Shown: piece after piece, positions 11,961 to 24,977 of the stretch
How the letters are laid out: each line of letters starts with the position of its first letter
Position numbering within the stretch: the stretch's first letter is position 1
IMG/VR virus record: IMGVR_UViG_3300046723_000326
Span: 1 to 51,420 of that record
DNA from: a virus
Length of the DNA stretch: 51,420 bases
Strand: one strand, 5' to 3'
Position numbers and translations under genes: made by a program
Notes under the pieces: model-generated
What the model was told of the DNA's origin: nothing
The model's input: the letters and a program-made list of their open reading frames with translations, nothing else
The model's database searches: none

Positions 11961-13493
11961 ATGTCAGACGCTGCGTCAAGAATGATGCGGTTGTTCGCGA
12001 GTTATGCCGAAGCCTACGGAACATACCAGACTCCGCAAGGAAAACAGCGCGCGAACGGCGTAAAGATGGAAATTAAGAGTTCCGCGAGAACTGTTCGCGA
12101 AACACTCACCATTGACATATGGACCGATCATCTATCAGGGCATAAGCCGCTGGGGATCATCCCTATTCAGAACGGTGACGTGTGCGAGTGGGGCTGCATC
12201 GACGTAGATCGCTACGACATCAACTTAGGTGAGATCGCTACTCAACTTGAGAAGGCGAAATTGCCGCTGGTCGTGTGTCGATCTAAGAGTGGTGGGGCTC
12301 ACATCTACATATTCTTCAGCAAACCAATAGATGCCGGAGAACTTCAGGAGAAATTGCGGGAGATCGCAGTTTCACTGGGTTTCGGCGACTGTGAGATATT
12401 CCCGAAGCAGACGACCGTGCTGCGCGAGAAGGGTGACGTTGGGAATTGGATCTGTGCGCCGTACTTCGCAGGTGACGAGACCGCGCGCTACAGTATCAAG
12501 CCGGGAGGCCAAGGAAGAACTCTCGATGAATTCCTCGATTACGCGGAGAAACTCCGTGTGTCACCGAATGAGTTCCTCACCGTAGCCGCCTCCCCGGCCC
12601 ACGACGAAAGTCTGGATGGTGGACCTCCATGTCTTCAGCACCTGACCACCTCGGGGTTCCCAGAGGGAACTCGAAACAACGGTCTATTCGCACTCGGAAC
12701 TTTCTGCAAGAAGAAGTTTGGGGATGACTGGGAGCGAGTTCTAGAGGACTACAATCGGAAATTCATGCAGCCACCTCTGAATACGGAGGAGGTCGCAGCA
12801 GTCGTCAAGTCTCTTCGTAAGAAGGACTACAACTACAAGTGTTCAGACAGTCCGTGCGTGAATCACTGCAATGCGATAGTCTGTAAGACGAGACGCTTCG
12901 GGGTAGGCGGGGGAGAGGAGTGGCCGAACCTGTCCGGTCTGTCTGTTCTGGAGACAGACCCGCCGATATGGTTCCTCACAGTCAACGGTCAGCGCATTGA
13001 GCTGGGTACCGATGAACTCATCATGTATCGTCGATTTCACAAGGTCTGCGTTGAGCGCCTGTATCTGTGCTTCTCGATGCTGACGGAGAAGGTGTGGGCG
13101 CAGCAGATTGGGACACTCATGAAAGAGGTGATAAAGATAGAGGCACCTCCAGAGGCTGGTGTCAAGGGACAATTCTTGGAACTCCTCCAAGAATTCTTGA
13201 CCAATCGTCACAGGGCTGAGACGCGCGAGGAGATAGCTGAGGGGAAGCCGTGGTTCGATGATGAGAAGCGTCTGTACTACTTCAGACTACAAGATCTACA
13301 CAACCATTTGATCCGGAATAAGTTTGACGAATTCGGCCGCAACCAGATCGCAGCTATTCTGCGTGAGATGGGTGGGAATCAGTACATGGTCGTCCGTGGT
13401 AAGGGGATGAATACGTTCTGTGTTGAGGAGCGGCACCTTGATGGTAAGATGTCGCCAGCCTCGCTGCCACCAAGTCTGAGGGAACCAATATGA
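11961..13493 (+). CDS. Archaeo-eukaryotic-type primase (TOTE-like AEP)
   Basis: 510 residues. The AEP catalytic motifs are clear: DVD at 81-83 (metal-binding), SGGAH at 110-114 (nucleotide-binding His) and EIFPKQ at 145-150, the signature of the TOTE/AEP subgroup. A helical primase-C-terminal region follows (about 215-290), then a Cys cluster (KCSDSPCVNHCNAIVC) likely to bind zinc or an Fe-S cluster. The last 170 residues are unassigned and have helical, winged-helix-like segments. It would make primers for the phage polymerase encoded downstream. No DnaB-type helicase domain is fused to it. Confidence 0.85.
   Translation: MSDAASRMMRLFASYAEAYGTYQTPQGKQRANGVKMEIKSSARTVRETLTIDIWTDHLSGHKPLGIIPIQNGDVCEWGCIDVDRYDINLGEIATQLEKAKLPLVVCRSKSGGAHIYIFFSKPIDAGELQEKLREIAVSLGFGDCEIFPKQTTVLREKGDVGNWICAPYFAGDETARYSIKPGGQGRTLDEFLDYAEKLRVSPNEFLTVAASPAHDESLDGGPPCLQHLTTSGFPEGTRNNGLFALGTFCKKKFGDDWERVLEDYNRKFMQPPLNTEEVAAVVKSLRKKDYNYKCSDSPCVNHCNAIVCKTRRFGVGGGEEWPNLSGLSVLETDPPIWFLTVNGQRIELGTDELIMYRRFHKVCVERLYLCFSMLTEKVWAQQIGTLMKEVIKIEAPPEAGVKGQFLELLQEFLTNRHRAETREEIAEGKPWFDDEKRLYYFRLQDLHNHLIRNKFDEFGRNQIAAILREMGGNQYMVVRGKGMNTFCVEERHLDGKMSPASLPPSLREPI
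12936..12960. repeat. Perfect in-gene inverted repeat
   Basis: GGTCTGTCT / AGACAGACC, 9-bp arms, 7-base loop, inside the primase gene. Confidence 0.65.
13171..13195. repeat. Perfect in-gene inverted repeat
   Basis: AATTCTTGGA / TCCAAGAATT, 10-bp arms, 5-base loop, inside the primase gene. Confidence 0.75.
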
Positions 13494-16099: not shown

Positions 16100-16154
16100 C
16101 GTACCTATCGTCTGAGTTTATACTTTAGGCTGCACCCACAGAGGAGATATGAAA

Positions 16155-17093
16155 ATGGACGTGAGAGTTATCCAGAGTGCTGAGACAACTGTGAAGAAGT
16201 ATGTCTTCACAAAGGAGGACGCAGTTCTCGAGGCTGTCCTCTACAAGTATCCAGACTACGAGTCCAGAACAGTCATCTGCTGTTCGACGATGAGTGGTTG
16301 CCCCGTCGGCTGTCGCTTCTGCGGCGCTGGTGACTATTTCGTTGGCTCATGTACCGGCGATGAGATCATGGAGCAGGTCGAGCGCTGCATTCATGATACC
16401 GGGGTTGAAGTCTCGAACATTCAGCGGCTCCAGATCATGTTTATGTCGATGGGAGAGCCGCTGCTCAATCGGAGCGGTATGCTCGACGCTCTCCCCCGGC
16501 TGTATCGTGCATACCCGAACGCGCGGCTGCTCATCTCTACAATCGGACCAAGGATCGACTACGGTTGGGTCAACTCTATCTCAGCAGCGATACCAACAAT
16601 CGGTCTTCAATTCTCCATTCATGAGTCAACCGATGAGGCGCGCTCCAAACTCATCCCATTCCAGAAGAAATTGACCATTCAGGAAATTGCCGTCGTCGGT
16701 GATCGATGGGCACACGTGACCGGACGTCGTCCATTCTTCAACTACTGCGCGGCCGATCACAACTCTGGTGATATTGACGCAGACCGGATTGCGGCGGCAC
16801 TGACACCTTCGACGTGGGAGGCAACAATCTCTGTCATCTGCGAACGCAACGAGGGCCTACCAGCGCGGAATCAGCATCAGCGTGATCTTGCTGAGGATTT
16901 CGCCGGGAAGCTTCTCGCGCGTGGGTTCAACGTGCGCGTCTTCGACCCAGCCGGTCAGGATGATATCGGCGGCGGCTGTGGTCAACTCTGGTTTGTGCAG
17001 GACTGGATGGAGAAGCATCCCGGTCTGGCTCATCCCAGCATTGGACACGGTCGTCCTAAAGTTCACGTGCCGGCGATGGTGCAGCATGGCTGA
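16155..17093 (+). CDS. RlmN/Cfr-like dual-cysteine radical SAM enzyme
   Basis: 312 residues from ATG 16155, eight bases after GAGGAG; an in-frame ATG at 16149 is too close to that site. The CxxxCxxC cluster (Cys49, Cys53, Cys56) would bind the 4Fe-4S cluster and SAM. Two more cysteines match the methyl-transfer pair of RlmN/Cfr: Cys42, seven residues before the cluster, and Cys275 in CGQLW. A GEPLL segment (SMGEPLL) also fits. RlmN and Cfr methylate C2 or C8 of adenosine in RNA. Here the gene opens a cluster of nucleotide-modification genes, so the substrate could be RNA or a DNA base. It follows a terminator and a weak TATACT -10 (16119-16124). Confidence 0.85.
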   Translation: MDVRVIQSAETTVKKYVFTKEDAVLEAVLYKYPDYESRTVICCSTMSGCPVGCRFCGAGDYFVGSCTGDEIMEQVERCIHDTGVEVSNIQRLQIMFMSMGEPLLNRSGMLDALPRLYRAYPNARLLISTIGPRIDYGWVNSISAAIPTIGLQFSIHESTDEARSKLIPFQKKLTIQEIAVVGDRWAHVTGRRPFFNYCAADHNSGDIDADRIAAALTPSTWEATISVICERNEGLPARNQHQRDLAEDFAGKLLARGFNVRVFDPAGQDDIGGGCGQLWFVQDWMEKHPGLAHPSIGHGRPKVHVPAMVQHG

Positions 17094-17298
17094 GCCAGTC
17101 ACTCTAGTCCCCACACGCCCAGATGCTGAGATAGCGGCGGGGCATCGTGAGAAAATCATACAGGCTGCTCAGGTCCTGTGTGCTGCGCTGACGGACTGCA
17201 AGCGCGACGGCTTCGACGTCGGAGTCAACTTTGGCCTCGTCACAGTCTACCCTCCGACCGTTGGGCTCTCCAACGTCACAATCTCAAAGGTGTTCTGA
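17086..17298 (+). CDS. Hypothetical small protein
   Basis: 70 residues, overlapping the radical SAM gene by 8 bp and the next gene by 1 bp. Pattern: a helix (AAGHREKIIQAAQVLCAALTDCKRD) then a short beta hairpin (VGVNFGLVTVYPP...LSNVTISKVF). Unrecognised; coupling makes it part of the modification cluster operon. Confidence 0.55.
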   Translation: MAEPVTLVPTRPDAEIAAGHREKIIQAAQVLCAALTDCKRDGFDVGVNFGLVTVYPPTVGLSNVTISKVF

Positions 17299-18191
17299 TG
17301 GCCGACATATCCCAGTTCTACACATACCTCCGCGAGCGTGAGTCCATCCGCCGACGACGCATGGCAGCCGGAGCGCACCCTCCTTTCACGGACGACCCAA
17401 TCCTCCGACAGTACAAGTTCACGAACGTGCGGCGTGAGTATGATCGTACGTCGTACATGCTGAGAAGAATATACGACAAGCATCAGGATGCCCCGCGCAA
17501 ACTCATCCTCTTAAACTGCGCCATCGCTCGATACTTCGGGACCAGCGAGTTCTACGAGGCGCTCGGGTGGCAGGATGACTTCAATCCTGACAAGATCAAG
17601 TCACTCGCGAGCGAGCGCCTTCGCTCTCGTCAGCGCGTCTTCACAGGCGCATACGTCATCACCAATCAGGGTATCAGCGCTCCGAAGGAGGAGGTGGTCA
17701 CAGACATCTTCCTGAAGGGACTGTGGAGCATGGCGACGACTGGCGGACTGTGCAATCTCATTCGTGATGGTTTGAGTTGGGAGCGCACGGTGCGTCAGAT
17801 GGCTGAGATTCAGGGCTTTGGCGGCACCGGCTTCATGGCGAAGGAGGTAACTCTGGATACCATGTACTTCACATCATTCTGGCCCGATAAGTCAGAAGAC
17901 GGGAAAAGTCTCCCGTCTGACTATTGGTCCTGGACTCCCATCGGACCGGGTGCGCGGCGCGGACTCCAACGTCTCGACATGTCTCCCACTCTTTCATGTC
18001 TGTTACAAGTCAGTGACTCACAGGATACAGTCTATACTGATCATGAACGACTCGTCGTATTCTGGCCTATGGACTGGGGGAAACTATCACCGACGGACAT
18101 ACAGTTCGGACTGTGCGAGTTTGACAAGTACGAGCGGACGCGGCTGGGCGAGGGTCGGCCTCGCTCACTGTTCAAACCGAGGAAGGACTGA
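17298..18191 (+). CDS. aGPT-pyrophosphorylase / 5-hmdU kinase helical-domain family protein
   Basis: 297 residues, ATG overlapping the previous stop by 1 bp. The N-terminus FYTYLRERESIRRRRMAAG, then FTDDPILRQYKFTNVRREYDRT, and the C-terminal WTPIGPGARRGLQRL are hallmarks of the helix-hairpin-helix glycosylase-related family that includes alpha-glutamyl/putrescinyl thymine pyrophosphorylases and the helical domain of 5-hydroxymethyldeoxyuridine DNA kinases. In known phages these act on 5-hydroxymethyluracil already in DNA to build hypermodified thymines. A P-loop kinase domain is absent here. I am confident of the family, less of which of the two reactions. Confidence 0.8.
   Translation: MADISQFYTYLRERESIRRRRMAAGAHPPFTDDPILRQYKFTNVRREYDRTSYMLRRIYDKHQDAPRKLILLNCAIARYFGTSEFYEALGWQDDFNPDKIKSLASERLRSRQRVFTGAYVITNQGISAPKEEVVTDIFLKGLWSMATTGGLCNLIRDGLSWERTVRQMAEIQGFGGTGFMAKEVTLDTMYFTSFWPDKSEDGKSLPSDYWSWTPIGPGARRGLQRLDMSPTLSCLLQVSDSQDTVYTDHERLVVFWPMDWGKLSPTDIQFGLCEFDKYERTRLGEGRPRSLFKPRKD
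17897..17918. repeat. In-gene inverted repeat
   Basis: AGACGGGA / TCCCGTCT, 8-bp arms with a 6-base loop, extended by GTCAGA / TCTGAC after a bulge, in coding sequence of the pyrophosphorylase-family gene. Confidence 0.55.
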
Positions 18192-18193
18192 CA

Positions 18194-18415
18194 ATGCGCA
18201 AGTTTCTGGTATTCTGGTACGACGGTGACTGGCAGCGCGTCAGTATCGTTCACACTGACAAAGAACCGACGGAAGACACGCTCAAGAAAATCCTCGAGAA
18301 TGAGACTGATGGGATAATCAACGGCGTCGTGCAACTCAACGGTCCGGACGACCAGCTCTATGTCAGAGTTAATGATGAGGAAGTCATTGATCCTGAAAAT
18401 GTGTACGAGAAATGA
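18194..18415 (+). CDS. Hypothetical small acidic protein
   Basis: 73 residues with a GAGGAAGG ribosome site. Likely an alpha/beta fold: KFLVFWYDGDWQRVSIVHTD, a helix (TEDTLKKILENET), then two strands. Acidic C-terminus. Not recognised; sits inside the modification cluster and overlaps the next gene by 4 bp. Confidence 0.55.
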   Translation: MRKFLVFWYDGDWQRVSIVHTDKEPTEDTLKKILENETDGIINGVVQLNGPDDQLYVRVNDEEVIDPENVYEK

Positions 18416-18879
18416 AGACCGTATTTCTCGGCATGTCTAACCCTCAGGGCAACCCCCCGCTCAGCCTTGAGCCCAAGGGAGGAGCTGGATGGAGACTGCA
18501 TCAGTTGGCTGAGGAGGGATTGGGTCGTCCGATACCTGTAATATCATGGCGAGGGACCTTCCACTTCACCAATATGCTGCCGGGGCGGGAGTGGTCCTAC
18601 GCCAAGGCTAAAGAGGCCGCACCGATGCTTCTTGAAGGGCTGCGCGGTCGGCGATTGGTGTGCCTTGGCGGCGGCGTGCTGGCAGCACTGAGACTTCCAG
18701 GAGTGCTCCCCTGCGCATGGGGGCACTCGGTTGCTGAAGACCGTCGGGTCATCACCTACGCGCTTGTGCCACACCCCTCAGGACGGAATCGTTTTTATAA
18801 CGATCCCGTACAGCGAGGGCTGGTGGCGAAGTTTCTGTCTGGGCTATACTTACAGGCATTGGAGGAGCTGGGTACATGA
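18412..18879 (+). CDS. Uracil-DNA glycosylase superfamily-like protein
   Basis: 155 residues. Features of the UDG fold: N-terminal strand and loop VFLGMSNPQGNPP (motif A position), then FTNMLPG, a central RLVCLGGGVLAAL strand-helix, and a C-terminal VPHPSGRNRFYND that matches the HPS motif B. Residues in motif A differ from classical UDGs, so glycosylase activity is not assured. In a base-modification cluster it might remove unmodified or intermediate bases, or act as a base reader. It could also be a divergent, non-catalytic member. Confidence 0.55.
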   Translation: MKTVFLGMSNPQGNPPLSLEPKGGAGWRLHQLAEEGLGRPIPVISWRGTFHFTNMLPGREWSYAKAKEAAPMLLEGLRGRRLVCLGGGVLAALRLPGVLPCAWGHSVAEDRRVITYALVPHPSGRNRFYNDPVQRGLVAKFLSGLYLQALEELGT

Positions 18880-19688
18880 AGATATATATTCCGTCGCTCG
18901 GACGTGCTGCGCGCGTCGGTGAAGGGCCGGTGCGGCAGATGCCGGAGCATCTGCGGCGCGACGTCTCTTACGTCGTGCTGCCTGAGGAAAGTATCCGCTA
19001 CGCTCAGGCGCTCTGTGATCTACGCATGAGCGGAGTGGATGTACTGGAGTGTCCACACCAGAGTCGTGATGAACTCAACATTGCGAAGGTGAGGGAGTGG
19101 ATCGGGCATCTTGCCCGAAAGTGCGGGCACGCCACTTTCATGGTCCTGGATGACGATATACGGTTCATCGTCCGGCGCTACGCCGACAGCACGCAGCTCG
19201 AGCCAATAGACGATAAGGGGTTCGCTGTGATGATGGAGTGGGTCGAGGAGTTGCTGAAGACCTACGCTCATGTCGGCATCGGAGTACGGGGAGGGAACAA
19301 CAACGTCGGGACTGGCGACGCGCCGCTGCTGACAGAGAATACCAGAACGATGCGCGCCTTGGCGTACAGAACGGACGACTTCCTGTCCGTGGAGCACGGA
19401 CGCGTGCAGGTCATGGAGGACTTTGATGTCAACCTTCAGCTCCTCCGTAAGGGGCTGAAGAATTGTAACATCAACTACTGGTGTCAAGACCAGAAGATGA
19501 CGAACGCAGCGGGCGGCTGCTCAGGTCTGCGGACACACGCGCTGCACGAGGCAGCAGCCGTCCGATTGGCCGAATTGCATCCCGGCTTGGTGGCACTACG
19601 TCAGAAGAAGAATAAGACAGGCGGCGAATTCGGCGAGCGCACCGAGGTGACTATCCAGTGGAAGCGAGCGTTCAATGCGGGACCATGA
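18876..19688 (+). CDS. GT-A glycosyltransferase of the TET-associated (TAGT) type
   Basis: 270 residues, ATG overlapping the previous stop. The opening KIYIPSLGRAARVG...VSYVVLPEESIRYA is the nucleotide-sugar-binding start of this family. LDDDIRF supplies the DxD metal/sugar site and VMEDFDVNLQLLRKG the acidic catalytic region. TAGT enzymes glycosylate hydroxymethylated bases in phage DNA. With a thymidylate-synthase-like hydroxymethylase nearby the likely acceptor is 5-hydroxymethyluracil, though no TET-like dioxygenase is seen in the window. The donor sugar cannot be told. Confidence 0.7.
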   Translation: MKIYIPSLGRAARVGEGPVRQMPEHLRRDVSYVVLPEESIRYAQALCDLRMSGVDVLECPHQSRDELNIAKVREWIGHLARKCGHATFMVLDDDIRFIVRRYADSTQLEPIDDKGFAVMMEWVEELLKTYAHVGIGVRGGNNNVGTGDAPLLTENTRTMRALAYRTDDFLSVEHGRVQVMEDFDVNLQLLRKGLKNCNINYWCQDQKMTNAAGGCSGLRTHALHEAAAVRLAELHPGLVALRQKKNKTGGEFGERTEVTIQWKRAFNAGP

Positions 19689-19932
19689 TGTCTATCAAGT
19701 CCACTACACTCAGAAGCGCACGATGGGGCGTTGGGAGGCAGAGGACCACTTTGAGGTGACTGGATATTCTGAGGAGGAACAATTCACAGAGTACTACGTT
19801 GCTTCAAATAAGGAGATCGTACGAGCGCACTTTCTGTATTGGGCGCAACACAGAGGTGGAAAGGAAAATCCAGTGAAACTAGTCAGCATCGAGAATCTCG
19901 GTCGTGCTAACATAATTCTGGAGATGAAATGA
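19675..19932 (+). CDS. Hypothetical protein
   Basis: 85 residues, overlapping the glycosyltransferase gene by 14 bp. Beta-rich (DVYQVHYTQKRTMGRWEAEDHFEVTGY type strands, described from 4 to 30) with a helix at 45-60. No family recognised. Confidence 0.5.
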   Translation: MRDHDVYQVHYTQKRTMGRWEAEDHFEVTGYSEEEQFTEYYVASNKEIVRAHFLYWAQHRGGKENPVKLVSIENLGRANIILEMK

Positions 19933-20255
19933 CCAACTTTGACAAGATCTGGCCGTCGCCGGAGACATGCTCTTGCATGGCTTCCGATGAGAGGCAGGCT
20001 GAGATACTCGGACTGGCGGAGACGGCGGCGCTGATGCTCGTGGAGGGCGCGTCGGCGGATGCAATCTGCGGTCCGATGCTTCCGCACTTTCTCGGAATGG
20101 TGACAGCCTTCGCGATGGGTTACTACGGGAAGATGACGGACCAGCGGCAGATGGAGCTACCGCTGCTCCAATATCCGTGTGTAGCCGCCGGATGCGCCGT
20201 GGCACATACGACGACCACAGCCATGATCACTGAAACCAGAGTGGGGAGTTGTTGA
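19929..20255 (+). CDS. Hypothetical protein
   Basis: 108 residues, start overlapping the previous stop by 4 bp. Helical, with a mildly hydrophobic central stretch (MLPHFLGMVTAFAMGYY) and several cysteines. Not recognised. The gene ends in the TGATG junction with the hydroxymethylase candidate. Confidence 0.5.
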   Translation: MTNFDKIWPSPETCSCMASDERQAEILGLAETAALMLVEGASADAICGPMLPHFLGMVTAFAMGYYGKMTDQRQMELPLLQYPCVAAGCAVAHTTTTAMITETRVGSC

Positions 20256-21298
20256 TGCGTGTACTGACTGGTAGGAATGTGAACGATCTGTACGCTCTGG
20301 GTCGAGCCTTACTCGACTCAGAAGGTATAAAGTCGAAGAGCCGTGCCGGAGACGTACTCGTCTGTCCGTGGCCGGTGGTTTCCGTGTACGCAAAGCCCAC
20401 GGAGCGAGTTCTCTTTGACTCGCTCCGCGACGCCAATCCATTCTTTCATTTGATGGAGGGCATCTGGATGCTGTCGGGGTCAGACAATGGAAACTGGCTC
20501 AACCAATTCGTCGGAGACTTCACCACACGATTTGCCGAGCCGGGCGGCATCATCCACGGCGCATATGGGAAGCGATGGCGCGCGTGGTTCCCGGTCTGGG
20601 GAAAAGATGAGACGGCGGGTAGCTACGTGGATCAACTCACCAAGATCGTCAAAATTCTGAGGAAGAATCCTGAGGATCGTCGCGCGGTCATCCAAATGTG
20701 GGACACGTCGGTAGATCTTGGGACTAACTTTAAGGATGTCCCGTGCAACACGCAGATCTACCCGCGTGTTCGTGAGGGCTCCTTAGACCTCACGATCATG
20801 TGTCGTAGCAACGACATTATCTGGGGTGCCTACGGCGCGAACGCGGTCCACTTCAGCATGTTGCACGAGTATCTGGCAGCAGGAGTTGGATGCCGAGTTG
20901 GAACGATGTTCCAACTCAGCAATAACTTTCACGGATATGTGGACGTGCTGGAGAAGCATCCAGCGCCGAGAATTCATGTACCTCATAACGTCGCCGAATT
21001 TGCTGCGACGATAGTCGGCCCGCTGCGCGGTAATCCATACGAGGTCGTGTATCCGATGCCGATGGTCGGTGACTTTGACGCGTTTGATGATGACGTCGGG
21101 AAATTTCTCTCCGACGTATGGGGAACTTCATCATATGTGAACCAATGGTTCATGTCTGTCGCATGGCCCATGCGTCAGGCGCACAGGCTCTGGAAAATCA
21201 AACAATTTTCAGGAGCGAGAAGTATGCTGATGAACGTCGACGCTCCCGACTGGCGGCGAGCGGCGCAGGAGTGGATGGATAGGAGGACAAAGGTATGA
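20255..21298 (+). CDS. Thymidylate-synthase-like enzyme, dUMP hydroxymethylase candidate
   Basis: 347 residues from ATG 20255 (GGGGAG six bases upstream, TGATG overlap). Thymidylate synthase hallmarks: catalytic Cys164 in DVPCNTQIYP, then CRSNDIIWGAYGANAVHF (183-200), the substrate-binding RS.D...G...N. Asn196 in the position that reads uracil argues for dUMP, not dCMP. In base-modifying phages this family makes 5-hydroxymethyl-dUMP with methylenetetrahydrofolate instead of dTMP. The length and the WGAY variant fit a divergent phage branch. Ordinary thymidylate synthase activity remains possible; the cluster favours hydroxymethylation. Confidence 0.8.
   Translation: MRVLTGRNVNDLYALGRALLDSEGIKSKSRAGDVLVCPWPVVSVYAKPTERVLFDSLRDANPFFHLMEGIWMLSGSDNGNWLNQFVGDFTTRFAEPGGIIHGAYGKRWRAWFPVWGKDETAGSYVDQLTKIVKILRKNPEDRRAVIQMWDTSVDLGTNFKDVPCNTQIYPRVREGSLDLTIMCRSNDIIWGAYGANAVHFSMLHEYLAAGVGCRVGTMFQLSNNFHGYVDVLEKHPAPRIHVPHNVAEFAATIVGPLRGNPYEVVYPMPMVGDFDAFDDDVGKFLSDVWGTSSYVNQWFMSVAWPMRQAHRLWKIKQFSGARSMLMNVDAPDWRRAAQEWMDRRTKV
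20401..20426. repeat. Perfect in-gene inverted repeat
   Basis: GGAGCGAGT / ACTCGCTCC, 9-bp arms, 8-base loop, in the hydroxymethylase candidate gene. Confidence 0.65.
20895..20917. repeat. Perfect in-gene inverted repeat
   Basis: GAGTTGGAAC / GTTCCAACTC, 10-bp arms, 3-base loop, in the hydroxymethylase candidate gene. Confidence 0.75.
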
Positions 21299-21819
21299 AC
21301 CACGACGATGTTCGCAGCAATCCTCGCCACGGTGGATCAGTGCGTCGATATCATGAGTGGCCGACGGTGCAGATGCAGACGTGCGCCGAGCACTCGTGGA
21401 ACGTAGCTCGTCTGTTCTGGAAATTTTATCCAGATAAGTGGACGGCTGAGGTAGCGATCTACATCATGTTCCACGACAGTGGAGAGATCGGTGTCGGAGA
21501 CATACCGTTCCCCGTAAAGCGTGATAATCCCACGTTGAAGGGTTACATGGATGAGTTAGAGCGTACTTCTCTGAAGAAGCAGGGCATCGTACTGCCAGAG
21601 CTCACCATGTTCGAGAAAGCACTCATCAAGATATGCGATCTACTCGAGATGTTCGAGTTTGGATGTGAGGAGATGCGGCGTGGGAACGCCTACGGCGAGC
21701 CGATAGTACGAGCGACGATCGATGGGATCGGAAAGTACGCGACAGCATCTCCATTCGATCTTCGAATGGACAATATCAAGATGCACCTAAACATCTACAA
21801 AGAGGGACTAGGACTATGA
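21295..21819 (+). CDS. HD-domain 5'-deoxynucleotidase (YfbR-like)
   Basis: 174 residues, ATG overlapping the upstream stop. HD motifs in order: R.HEWPTVQMQTCAEHS (His), FHDSGE (HD), KICDLLEM (final Asp), as in the YfbR family that dephosphorylates deoxynucleoside monophosphates. Beside a dUMP-modifying enzyme it may shape the nucleotide pool, for example by removing dTMP or another competing dNMP. Specificity cannot be read from the sequence. Confidence 0.8.
   Translation: MNHDDVRSNPRHGGSVRRYHEWPTVQMQTCAEHSWNVARLFWKFYPDKWTAEVAIYIMFHDSGEIGVGDIPFPVKRDNPTLKGYMDELERTSLKKQGIVLPELTMFEKALIKICDLLEMFEFGCEEMRRGNAYGEPIVRATIDGIGKYATASPFDLRMDNIKMHLNIYKEGLGL
21750..21770. repeat. Perfect in-gene inverted repeat
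   Basis: TCCATTCGA / TCGAATGGA, 9-bp arms, 3-base loop, in the HD nucleotidase gene. Confidence 0.65.
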
Positions 21820-22742
21820 GATACTGGAAGCACTTGCAGGACATCGCAAATCGTGATGTTCAGCAGACGCTGGCGAAGGATCAGACGTACCAAGGCTCAT
21901 GGCAGAAGCGCGGCGGCGTCGGAGCATTCATGATGTTGGCCCGAAAGTGGGATCGTATCGAGTCGATATTGGACAGACAGTTCAAGTACGATGTCATCCG
22001 TGGGGTCGATGCTGATATCAGCGGTGCCGACGGCACGGTACTCGCCGAGATACGTGATCTTCGCAGCTATCTGATGCTGGTCGAGGCCGAGGTTATGGCG
22101 ATGCGCGCCGAGCGCGGCGACGTGCAGATCAAGATCGATCCGAGTGCGACCGTAGTCCGACCAATCTACGGTGAGTATTCTCCGAGCGACAAGATCACCA
22201 TAGACGAGCGCCTCGTCCCGCGCTTCGACACGTGGATCGGGAAGACTGTGGTGTACGAAAGTCTACTCACACCAAATCTCAATGTGAGCAAGTACCGTCA
22301 TGTTGGAACTGTGACAAAACAGGGCATGATTGCCGACGATCTGTGCGTGTGGTTCATAGATGGGGATGGCAGGGAGCTATCTGTCAAAGCCTCCGAGGTC
22401 CAACTCGCCCCGGTGCCGGCGACGGACTCCAACAAGTACGCCGACCGTGATGTGTCGCGCGATGACGGACGGATGGTTGCCTTCATCAGTCACAAACAGT
22501 ATGACGTCTTGAGTGAAAGACTCAAGAAACGTTACATCGTCACAGCTCAGTACGCCCATCTTGATCGTGGACAGTACTCACCGGAGGAGCGCGACGCCAA
22601 GTTCATACCACTGCATCTGACGTTGTCGAAATCGGACCACGCGGCGCTCCGCCATGCCATGCAGGAACTATATGAACCGCGACAGGGCGTACCTGACGAG
22701 TATCAGCTACGTCAGAAATTCAGGGAGCATTGGGGACAATGA
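21816..22742 (+). CDS. Nmad1-like (DUF1599-type) protein with C-terminal extension
   Basis: 308 residues. The first 95 (LAKDQTYQGSWQKRG...RKWDRIESIL...EIRDLRSYLMLVEAEV) match the helical nucleotide modification-associated domain 1, often found in phages with modified bases. The remainder is a beta-rich region (WIGKTVVYESLL...KYRHVGTVTKQG) and a basic helical C-terminus of unknown function. Coupled by ATGA to the nucleotidase, it supports the reading of 16155-22742 as a base-modification cluster. Family call is moderate because the domain is short. Confidence 0.55.
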   Translation: MRYWKHLQDIANRDVQQTLAKDQTYQGSWQKRGGVGAFMMLARKWDRIESILDRQFKYDVIRGVDADISGADGTVLAEIRDLRSYLMLVEAEVMAMRAERGDVQIKIDPSATVVRPIYGEYSPSDKITIDERLVPRFDTWIGKTVVYESLLTPNLNVSKYRHVGTVTKQGMIADDLCVWFIDGDGRELSVKASEVQLAPVPATDSNKYADRDVSRDDGRMVAFISHKQYDVLSERLKKRYIVTAQYAHLDRGQYSPEERDAKFIPLHLTLSKSDHAALRHAMQELYEPRQGVPDEYQLRQKFREHWGQ

Positions 22743-22945
22743 AGACAGTACTGTTCACCATCATATATCTCGTGCTCTGGTACATCGTGTCGGTCACACT
22801 CCCGCTCGGCTGCTACCTCATCCTTGGGTTTCATGGGAATGAGTGGTCCGTCGTGCGGGGAGGGGCGCTAGTGGGAACGGCGCTTCTCGCTGGTTCGATT
22901 CTCTGGTTTGTGATCGACAAGTGGGACAACATCTTTGGCGAGTAA
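22739..22945 (+). CDS. Small membrane protein
   Basis: 68 residues, ATG overlapping the upstream stop. Two transmembrane helices (about 3-27 and 37-58) and a short acidic tail (DKWDNIFGE). Located between the Nmad1-like gene and the polymerase and overlapping the latter by 11 bp. Function unknown. Confidence 0.6.
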   Translation: MKTVLFTIIYLVLWYIVSVTLPLGCYLILGFHGNEWSVVRGGALVGTALLAGSILWFVIDKWDNIFGE

Positions 22946-24977
22946 GCGCTACCAGAAGAACGCGGCGGCGGGGCAGCTTCCGCTGATCACACCCACCAGC
23001 ACGTGGATTCAACCAACAACGCTCCCTGACTTAAGAAGTCAGGGAACGTTGGCGCTCGACCTCGAGACGAAAGACGACGGCCTTGCATCCAATCGCGGGG
23101 CCGGTTGGGTCTACGATTCTGGGTACATCTGCGGTCTGGCTGTTGCGTGGTCAGAGGGGGAAAGTTATTTCCCCATCAGACACCCGGACACAGAGTGCTT
23201 TGATGAGGACGCGGTGCGTCGGTGGTATCTCGATCATACACGCTCCTGTCGGGTGGTCTATCATCGGGCCGTGTATGATCTAGGCTGGGCGAAGGCACAG
23301 TGGGATGCGCCGTACCCAGAGCGCATGGAAGACACGATCGTTGCCGACTTCATCAGGAATGAAAATGAGTTTGAATATAACCTCGACGCCGTAGCCAAGA
23401 GGCTAGGCGTCAAGGGTAAGGACGAAGCGGCGCTGCGGGACGCGGCCTCCGTGTACGGTGTGGACGCCAAGGCGGGTCTCTGGAGACTCCCGGCGCGGTA
23501 CGTGGGCGGCTATGCCAGCCAGGACGCAAGAGCCACGTATGACTGTCTGACACCGCTCACCAAGGTGATGGAGGAAGAGAATACGCTCGAGGCCTATCGC
23601 CTTGAGTGTGATCTTATTCCATTAATCGTGGAGATGCGACGTCGTGGCATTCGCATCAATATCCCATACTTCGAGCAACTCTCCGTCTCTCTTAAAAAGA
23701 AGAGAGACGAAGCGTTGGTAGAACTCGGTCGTCGGCTAGCTCTGGGTCGGCCAGCGGAGGTGAAGGAGCTAAACTCCAACCGCTACCTGACGACATGGTT
23801 TGATCGGGAGCAGATACCATACCCGAGAACCCTCGGGACAAAGAAGAATTCCGAGGGTTCTCCCTCGTTCGAGTCTGATTGGATGAAGAAGCGTGATCAT
23901 TGGCTCCCACAACTAGTTGTGAGAGCCAAGAAATACGAGCAGTTCGCCAGCAAGTTCTTAGATAACTACGTTCTAGGCTTCGCCCATCGTGGACGGCTGC
24001 ACTCAGAGATACACCAGACCAAGACGGATGATGGTGGGACGAAGACGACCCGGTTGGCGTACAGCGATCCTCCGCTCCAGCAGGCACCGTCGAGAGATGA
24101 GGAGTTGGGACCAGCCTTCAGGAAGGGATTCCAGCCTGAGGATGGTGAGGTGTGGGCCGCGCCCGACTATAATCAGCAAGAGTACCGGCTGATCGTTCAT
24201 TATGCAAATGTGTGTAGAGTTGCAGGGGCCGAACGGCCTCTGCAAATTTACACAGAGAACCCAAAGGCTGATTTCCATAACATCGTTGTGCAACTCACCG
24301 GACTAGTCCGGCGAGATGCAAAAGACGCGAACTTCGCAAAGGCGTATCGGGCAGGGGTGCCGAAGTTTGCGCTCATGATCGACAAGACCGAGGCCGAGGC
24401 GCGCGAGATATATGAGCGCTACGATGACGAGATGCCATTCGTCTCAAGGCTGGCAGAATTCTGCGACACGCGGGCTCAGCAGCGCGGCTATCTCATCATG
24501 CTCGACGGAGCGCGGGCGCACTTCCCCAAGTGGGAGCCGAGATGGATGGAGCGTGCGGCCCGAGATAAAGCATTTATCGAGGGACGTATGGTTCCGTGTG
24601 ATTATGAGACCGCTCAAAAGCGGACTCATGATAAGACTGATCCATGGTTCGGCTGCAAGCTACGGAGGGCGGATACCTACAAGGCGGGGAACAAGCTGAT
24701 CCAAGGTAGTGCGGCGCGACAGACCAAGCTGGCGATGCGCGGCCTGTGGCGCGAGGGGATTATACCACTCATCCAGATGCATGATGAGTTGAGCCTGAGC
24801 ACGTCTGACGAGCGCGTCGCGCTCCGTGCTCAGGCTATAATGGTAGATGCCGTGAAACTGGTAGTCCCGACCATCGTCGACCTAGAGTATGGAAAGACGT
24901 GGGGCGACGCGAAGGTAGTCAAGGACAAGAGTGGAAAGGTACTATATGATGCAAGCTGGAGCGCCGCTCATGGTTGA
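22935..24977 (+). CDS. polA: Family A DNA polymerase with 3'-5' exonuclease
   Basis: 680 residues from a TTG start with only a weak upstream GGGA. Exonuclease motifs: LDLETKD (Asp42, Glu44), YHRAVYDLGW and YASQDARATYD. Polymerase motifs: A = PDYNQQEYRL, B = RRDAKDANFAKAYRAG, C = MHDELSL. The exonuclease and polymerase cores are complete and there is no 5' nuclease domain, as in phage replicases. Motif B departs from the usual YG after the catalytic Lys and Phe: Tyr is kept but Gly is replaced by Arg (YRAG). This may matter if the enzyme handles modified thymidines. Confidence 0.93.
   Translation: MASKRYQKNAAAGQLPLITPTSTWIQPTTLPDLRSQGTLALDLETKDDGLASNRGAGWVYDSGYICGLAVAWSEGESYFPIRHPDTECFDEDAVRRWYLDHTRSCRVVYHRAVYDLGWAKAQWDAPYPERMEDTIVADFIRNENEFEYNLDAVAKRLGVKGKDEAALRDAASVYGVDAKAGLWRLPARYVGGYASQDARATYDCLTPLTKVMEEENTLEAYRLECDLIPLIVEMRRRGIRINIPYFEQLSVSLKKKRDEALVELGRRLALGRPAEVKELNSNRYLTTWFDREQIPYPRTLGTKKNSEGSPSFESDWMKKRDHWLPQLVVRAKKYEQFASKFLDNYVLGFAHRGRLHSEIHQTKTDDGGTKTTRLAYSDPPLQQAPSRDEELGPAFRKGFQPEDGEVWAAPDYNQQEYRLIVHYANVCRVAGAERPLQIYTENPKADFHNIVVQLTGLVRRDAKDANFAKAYRAGVPKFALMIDKTEAEAREIYERYDDEMPFVSRLAEFCDTRAQQRGYLIMLDGARAHFPKWEPRWMERAARDKAFIEGRMVPCDYETAQKRTHDKTDPWFGCKLRRADTYKAGNKLIQGSAARQTKLAMRGLWREGIIPLIQMHDELSLSTSDERVALRAQAIMVDAVKLVVPTIVDLEYGKTWGDAKVVKDKSGKVLYDASWSAAHG
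23023..23045. repeat. Perfect in-gene inverted repeat
   Basis: TCCCTGACTT / AAGTCAGGGA, 10-bp arms, 3-base loop, near the 5' end of the polymerase gene. Confidence 0.75.
23825..23862. repeat. Perfect 12-bp in-gene inverted repeat
   Basis: GAGAACCCTCGG / CCGAGGGTTCTC, 14-base loop, inside the polymerase gene. Confidence 0.8.
24220..24245. repeat. In-gene inverted repeat with one mismatch
   Basis: TTGCAGGGGCC pairs with GGCCTCTGCAA (11 bp, one mismatch), loop GAAC, in the polymerase gene. Confidence 0.65.

Follow-up and report, generated by a model that had tools for sequence, protein, structure and literature searches.

The linear IMG/VR virus record IMGVR_UViG_3300046723_000326 (51,420 bp, here called the window) carries a run of plus-strand genes, overlapping or almost so, and the question it raises is which base modification is made where a protein of the HMUDK_hel family (hereafter hel) stands beside a glycosyltransferase (GT) of the TAGT family, a thymidylate synthase (TS) homologue and an HD-domain nucleotidase (Table 1). 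An earlier note on this DNA had proposed that these genes, together with an upstream radical S-adenosylmethionine (SAM) enzyme, lead to a glycosylated or otherwise derivatised 5-hydroxymethyluracil. Profile searches of the window proteins against Pfam, PHROGs and NCBIfam bore out the cluster, its gene positions and the hel, TAGT, TS and HD assignments, while an Nmad1 assignment was lost and one resembling uracil-DNA glycosylase (UDG) remained weak. The explanation that best accounts for the whole, and which we consider probable, is that the cluster makes glycosylated 5-hydroxymethyluracil DNA, with hel presenting the base to the TAGT enzyme and the radical SAM enzyme standing outside the pathway, which would most likely be a variant of known thymidine hypermodification.

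The thymidine hypermodification locus (5-NedU) of Pseudomonas phage M6/YuA runs in the order amino acid:DNA transferase (ADDT, gp51), pyridoxal phosphate (PLP) enzyme (gp52), radical SAM enzyme (gp53), 5-hydroxymethyldeoxyuridine (5-hmdU) kinase (gp54), hel (gp55), Nmad5, TS (gp58), HD (gp59) and PolA (gp62). The window shares the order hel, TS, HD, PolA and has homologues of hel, the dUMP hydroxymethylase, the HD protein, the polymerase and a gp48-like protein, but lacks the kinase, the ADDT, the PLP enzyme and the M6 radical SAM enzyme, which is of a different kind from its own. Unlike M6, the window has a TAGT gene between hel and TS, which takes the place of the M6 kinase and ADDT. The cluster is no assembly artefact, as it recurs in a second IMG/VR contig (63,964 bp) that matches the window at 99.96% identity across ~21 kb. 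The 5-hmdU kinase profile (PF18748) matches M6 as a positive control and nothing in the window or this sister contig; likewise the ADDT profile (PF18724) matches M6 and finds nothing in the sister record, nor is ADDT found in the window by locus profile. A kinase encoded in the unsequenced remainder of the genome was considered and rejected, as the near-identical 63,964-bp record holds none. It is the combination of an M6-type hydroxymethylase and a TAGT enzyme, with kinase and ADDT not found, that supports a glycosylated 5-hydroxymethyluracil.

The TS homologue bears most directly on which pyrimidine is modified. Its earlier designation as a hydroxymethylase agrees with Pfam and PHROGs matches and with its homology to M6 gp58, to which it is 41–44% identical (over its length) compared to 22% for T4 gp42. 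By alignment it keeps the catalytic Cys and an Asn (residue 196) matching N177 of E. coli ThyA, both of which are also kept, in a wider alignment, by M6, ViI, LuckyBarnes and all the loci displayed in it, while T4 gp42 has no Asn at this position. The Asn, common to M6 and ViI and missing from T4 gp42, makes dUMP the favoured substrate, and the sequence favours, short of proof, a dUMP hydroxymethylase of the M6 type. A TET/JBP dioxygenase as the source of the hydroxymethyl group was rejected, no such gene being present in the window, the sister record, LuckyBarnes or Manatee Spring phage MW202897; the hydroxyl for glycosylation is predicted to come from the TS hydroxymethylase instead. The TAGT assignment scores 79.8 bits against PF20691 (gathering score 27.5), and an acidic DxD metal motif, DDD at residues 92–94 (D92–D94), is invariant in the TAGT alignment. 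An AlphaFold2 (AF2) model of this protein (pLDDT 89) gives weak matches of GT-A/nucleotidyltransferase type (TM about 0.4–0.54).

Whether the exchange of kinase for GT is a general feature was addressed with two alignment-based scans of IMG/VR for hel, yielding 145 distinct contigs (single-protein hel or GT scans of viral contigs gave almost no matches, so that alignments were needed). Genes were counted by profile on six-frame translations, since open reading frame calling misses genes in GC-rich contigs, using profiles built from clusters inside the same loci. Hel and TS occur together in 131 distinct contigs, of which 95 carry a GT only, 31 a kinase only, five neither and none both; whole-record searches agree with these counts, and oversight of a kinase or GT through poor gene calling was rejected on the strength of both. 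The GT-type contigs comprise 61 with TAGT/GT-A enzymes and 26 with an unrelated GT-B class, the remainder having others, and GT-A and GT-B never occur together in the surveyed contigs. ADDT, PLP and M6-type radical SAM genes are restricted to kinase-type loci. Hel, its partner and TS share one strand in 132/132 loci, with a median hel–GT gap of 68 bp.

The same association appears when the GT is taken as the starting point. Scanning by TAGT alignment added 52 contigs new to the set, with TS in 51, no kinase in any, and hel in 48, the other four contigs ending at the GT; taken together, some two hundred contigs of uncultured phages show the either-or swap. A quick maximum-likelihood tree built from 148 hel sequences calls for at least seven switches between kinase and GT, and for at least 17 when four partner classes are distinguished; one kinase-bearing locus (L123) lies inside a GT clade, and long branches leave some placements uncertain. 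The exclusion, the repeated swapping and the GT-B class were not found in the searchable literature, outside which the main thymidine-hypermodification papers lie.

If the modified base were 5-hydroxymethylcytosine, the TS homologue would act on dCMP and the TAGT enzyme would glycosylate the product in T-even fashion. The PHROGs family of the GT (phrog_842) is indeed named for a beta-glucosyl-HMC-alpha-glucosyltransferase, related GTs occur in Acinetobacter phages (one of 168 kb), and a dCMP hydroxymethylase has been predicted for LuckyBarnes (PMC6588365). We nevertheless regard this as unlikely, given that the TS homologue is 44% identical to M6 gp58 against 22% for T4 gp42, that it has the ThyA N177-type Asn of M6 and ViI, with no Asn there in T4, and that linkage is strict to hel, a family characterised in the context of 5-hmdU. 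Less probable still is that an M6-like kinase/aminoacyl pathway also runs, through a diverged or host kinase and with hel as pyrophosphorylase or transferase, the GT decorating its product. This would suit the annotation of the hel family as alpha-glutamyl/putrescinyl thymine pyrophosphorylase and its position adjoining the kinase in M6, but kinase and GT occur together in none of the 131 loci and none of the 52 GT-first contigs, and ADDT is absent from all 22 GT-type records searched whole, the M6 and Sonora controls matching.

The least probable of the alternatives, to which we give very little credence, is that the radical SAM enzyme attaches a carbon substituent to either the base or the sugar. 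It lies directly upstream of the cluster, its CxxxCxxC motif (C51, C55, C58) and both methyl-relay Cys positions (C44, C277) are conserved over 81 aligned sequences, as in RlmN and Cfr, and an unrelated radical SAM enzyme of SPASM type occurs in 16 of the 95 GT-type loci. However, among 80 relatives only that of the near-identical phage has hel, a GT or a kinase nearby; tRNAs occur at 23 of 82 radical SAM loci (the relatives and two isolates) compared to 3 of 151 hel loci; no neighbouring gene is conserved; and within 151 hel and reference loci the window type is confined to the window's own phage. RlmN and Cfr themselves target adenine in RNA. Membership of the pathway, as the earlier note had it, was rejected on these gene neighbourhoods, the relatives adjoining unrelated genes; the enzyme is almost certainly outside the pathway and its position beside the cluster looks incidental. 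Its designation as RlmN/Cfr-like holds in that these are the nearest NCBIfam and PDB families, but scores are far under the cut-offs (93 bits against 290 for RlmN), and it shares the cysteine motifs of these RNA methylases without their N-terminal domain. Judged by its sequence, the enzyme is probably an adenine methylase of nucleic acid, more likely of RNA. Two further cysteines, C200 and C231, are 98–100% conserved across the 81 RlmN-like phage proteins.

Returning to the probable glycosylation of 5-hydroxymethyluracil, the role of hel has to be reconsidered. Its family assignment is firm (Table 1), and both hel and the TAGT protein fall inside modification families; the pyrophosphorylase label of the earlier note is correct as to family, the name itself (alpha-glutamyl/putrescinyl thymine pyrophosphorylase clade 1) being a legacy. 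As no kinase is encoded in GT-type loci, hel has no kinase product there on which it could act as a pyrophosphorylase. The top three Foldseek PDB matches of its AF2 model (pLDDT 88) are DNA glycosylases of the OGG1/AlkA helix-hairpin-helix (HhH) type at non-significant E values of 0.5–1.1, and a GPGxxRG motif at residues 216–222, HhH-like, is invariant in the alignment, which has no conserved acid ~15–25 residues beyond it, where the catalytic Asp of HhH glycosylases lies. As a lead only, the model makes it possible that hel is a base-binding, non-cleaving relative of these enzymes. We propose that hel is a recognition or targeting partner for 5-hmdU in DNA, and infer that it interacts with the GT, although fused hel–kinase or hel–GT proteins were not found in the surveyed loci. 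More generally, and tentatively, as we rate it slightly below an even chance, the hel family may be a targeting platform for 5-hmdU in DNA with an exchangeable catalytic partner, neither kinase subunit nor pyrophosphorylase. Its partners might then be, with the same reserve, a P-loop kinase, a TAGT (GT-A) enzyme or a GT-B-like enzyme without cultured relatives, and a SPASM radical SAM enzyme or cytidylyltransferase could sometimes serve as accessories, a suggestion we hold no more firmly.

The pathway may be pictured as follows. The TS homologue would turn dUMP into 5-hydroxymethyl-dUMP, as its close homology to M6 gp58 suggests, and the HD nucleotidase (41.1 bits to PF12917, gathering score 25.9) would remove competing nucleotide, probably trimming that pool. 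We infer that kinases then bring 5-hydroxymethyl-dUMP to the triphosphate, which the phage polymerase would insert for part of the thymidine. After replication the TAGT enzyme, on account of its family membership and strict linkage, is expected to put a sugar on the 5-hydroxymethyl group, the donor most likely coming from the host UDP-sugar pool. Hel would bind 5-hmdU in the DNA, perhaps flip the base, and present it to the TAGT enzyme; its relative in M6-type phages probably does likewise for the 5-hmdU kinase.

Several observations weigh against this account. The structural matches between hel and DNA glycosylases fall short of significance, and hel is not always required, since the circular 40-kb genome MW202897 combines TAGT, hydroxymethylase and HD genes without it. 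The LuckyBarnes enzyme was published as a dCMP hydroxymethylase, with two glycosyltransferases (PMC6588365), and no nucleoside data for these phages were found in the literature. The Fisher test for kinase/GT exclusion (3e-25) ignores relatedness, and well-supported branches force only four of the seven kinase/GT changes in the quick tree. The window and sister contigs are both linear and possibly incomplete.

Comparable gene sets are found elsewhere. The pairing that had been called unrecognised is in part known: a 2022 description of pelagiphages of the HTVC023P type puts TS, aGPT-PPlase1 (hel), a deoxynucleotidase and a putative glucosyltransferase in the vicinity of PolA. These phages share TS and aGPT-PPlase1 near polA with the window but belong to a different lineage, and the accessible portion of that description interprets them by analogy with M6 and reports no kinase/GT exclusion (PMC9599517). 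Brevibacterium phage LuckyBarnes shares hel (PF18723, 230 bits), TAGT and a TS homologue (gp38–gp41), with kinase and ADDT not found by profile, but differs in having two TAGTs and a longer (517 aa), more distant TS homologue. MW202897 shares a TAGT enzyme (39% identical), a pyrimidine hydroxymethylase (41%) and the HD protein, but differs in the absence of hel. In YerA41 a thymidine modification of ~1 kDa, apparently an oligosaccharide, has been described (PMC9023294).

Table 1. Genes of the modification cluster and its immediate neighbours, with coordinates in the window.
Feature	Position	Strand	Evidence or remark
RlmN/Cfr-like radical SAM, N-terminal domain absent	16149..17093	+	Radical_SAM Pfam 5e-7; neighbour, probably not in pathway
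HMUDK_hel-family protein, 297 aa	17298..18191	+	PF18723 9e-34; phrog_2396 9e-43; 30% to M6 gp55
73-aa protein	18194..18415	+	no match in Pfam, PHROGs, NCBIfam
Small M6 gp48-family protein, possibly UDG-superfamily-like	18412..18879	+	phrog_12275 1.3e-17; 32% to M6 gp48
TAGT / beta-glucosyl-HMC-alpha-glucosyltransferase-like glycosyltransferase, 270 aa	18876..19688	+	PF20691 3.5e-22; phrog_842 2e-36
85-aa protein	19675..19932	+	no match in Pfam, PHROGs, NCBIfam
108-aa protein	19929..20255	+	no match in Pfam, PHROGs, NCBIfam
TS homologue, predicted dUMP 5-hydroxymethylase, 347 aa	20255..21298	+	Thymidylat_synt 4e-21; phrog_5131 3.5e-95; open reading frame 20249-21298, ATG at 20255
HD-domain YfbR-like 5'-deoxynucleotidase	21295..21819	+	PF12917 1.9e-10; homologue of M6 gp59
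308-aa protein	21816..22742	+	N-terminus in unnamed family (C6 profile 5e-35)
Family A DNA polymerase adjoining cluster	22935..24977	+	phrog_17 8e-81; 30% to M6 gp62

Two smaller assignments of the earlier note fared less well. The supposed UDG-like protein has no Pfam match, and none to the UDG superfamily (PF03167) at E up to 1; it is homologous to M6 gp48 (E 5e-8), which itself reaches the UDG profile at E 0.002, below the cut-off. The 308-aa protein, thought to be Nmad1-like, has no match to PF07659 or any other Pfam family; the family of its N-terminus is common beside polA in hel loci. In the window the replication block (helicases, primase, family A polymerase) is flanked by tail, endolysin, terminase and portal genes, and the primase (11961–13493) has an AEP-TOTE archaeo-eukaryotic primase domain. 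The sole nucleotide match to the window is 49 bp inside the TS gene, to Stenotrophomonas phage Sonora (Mesyanzhinovviridae).

In 26 of the surveyed contigs (L095–L120, e.g. L100:8903-10189) the hel–TS slot is occupied by the GT-B-like class, for which PHROGs gives no match and 50,697 isolate phage records contain no relative. Two TAGT copies are present in each of L202 (10889-15146), which also has two radical SAM genes, and L085 (13989-15600), which suggests a disaccharide or two-step decoration. A SPASM-type radical SAM gene, unrelated to the RlmN-like enzyme of the window, adjoins the GT in L137 (11861-12859), L093 (10945-11949), L253 and L254; by six-frame survey this type occurs in one locus besides the 16 of GT type. 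A cytidylyltransferase-like gene (phrog_7878, heptose-1-phosphate adenylyltransferase-like) lies near polA in L150 (7380-7790) and 23 other contigs, all 24 of GT type; it may have a role in activating an uncommon sugar or polyol as donor. In L094 (11660-13585) a weak APH-like phosphotransferase and an NTP-transferase-like gene lie by hel, TAGT and an Nmad5-like gene.

If the probable pathway holds, sugars linked to thymine are to be expected in the DNA of a wide range of uncultured phages, and as the cultured phage LuckyBarnes carries a comparable gene set the prediction reaches a cultured case. It also gives hel a testable role. Were hel a general platform, the thymine analogues of uncultured phages would form a family that varies in glycosylation, and hel would set the sequence preference of the modification. 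For M6, a preference for TG/TC is suggested by published data (PMC6449724). A hel that works as a swappable targeting module would open the way to placing a variety of chemical groups on 5-hydroxymethyluracil in DNA, and would make it easier to understand how phages alter their DNA chemistry in the face of host nucleases.

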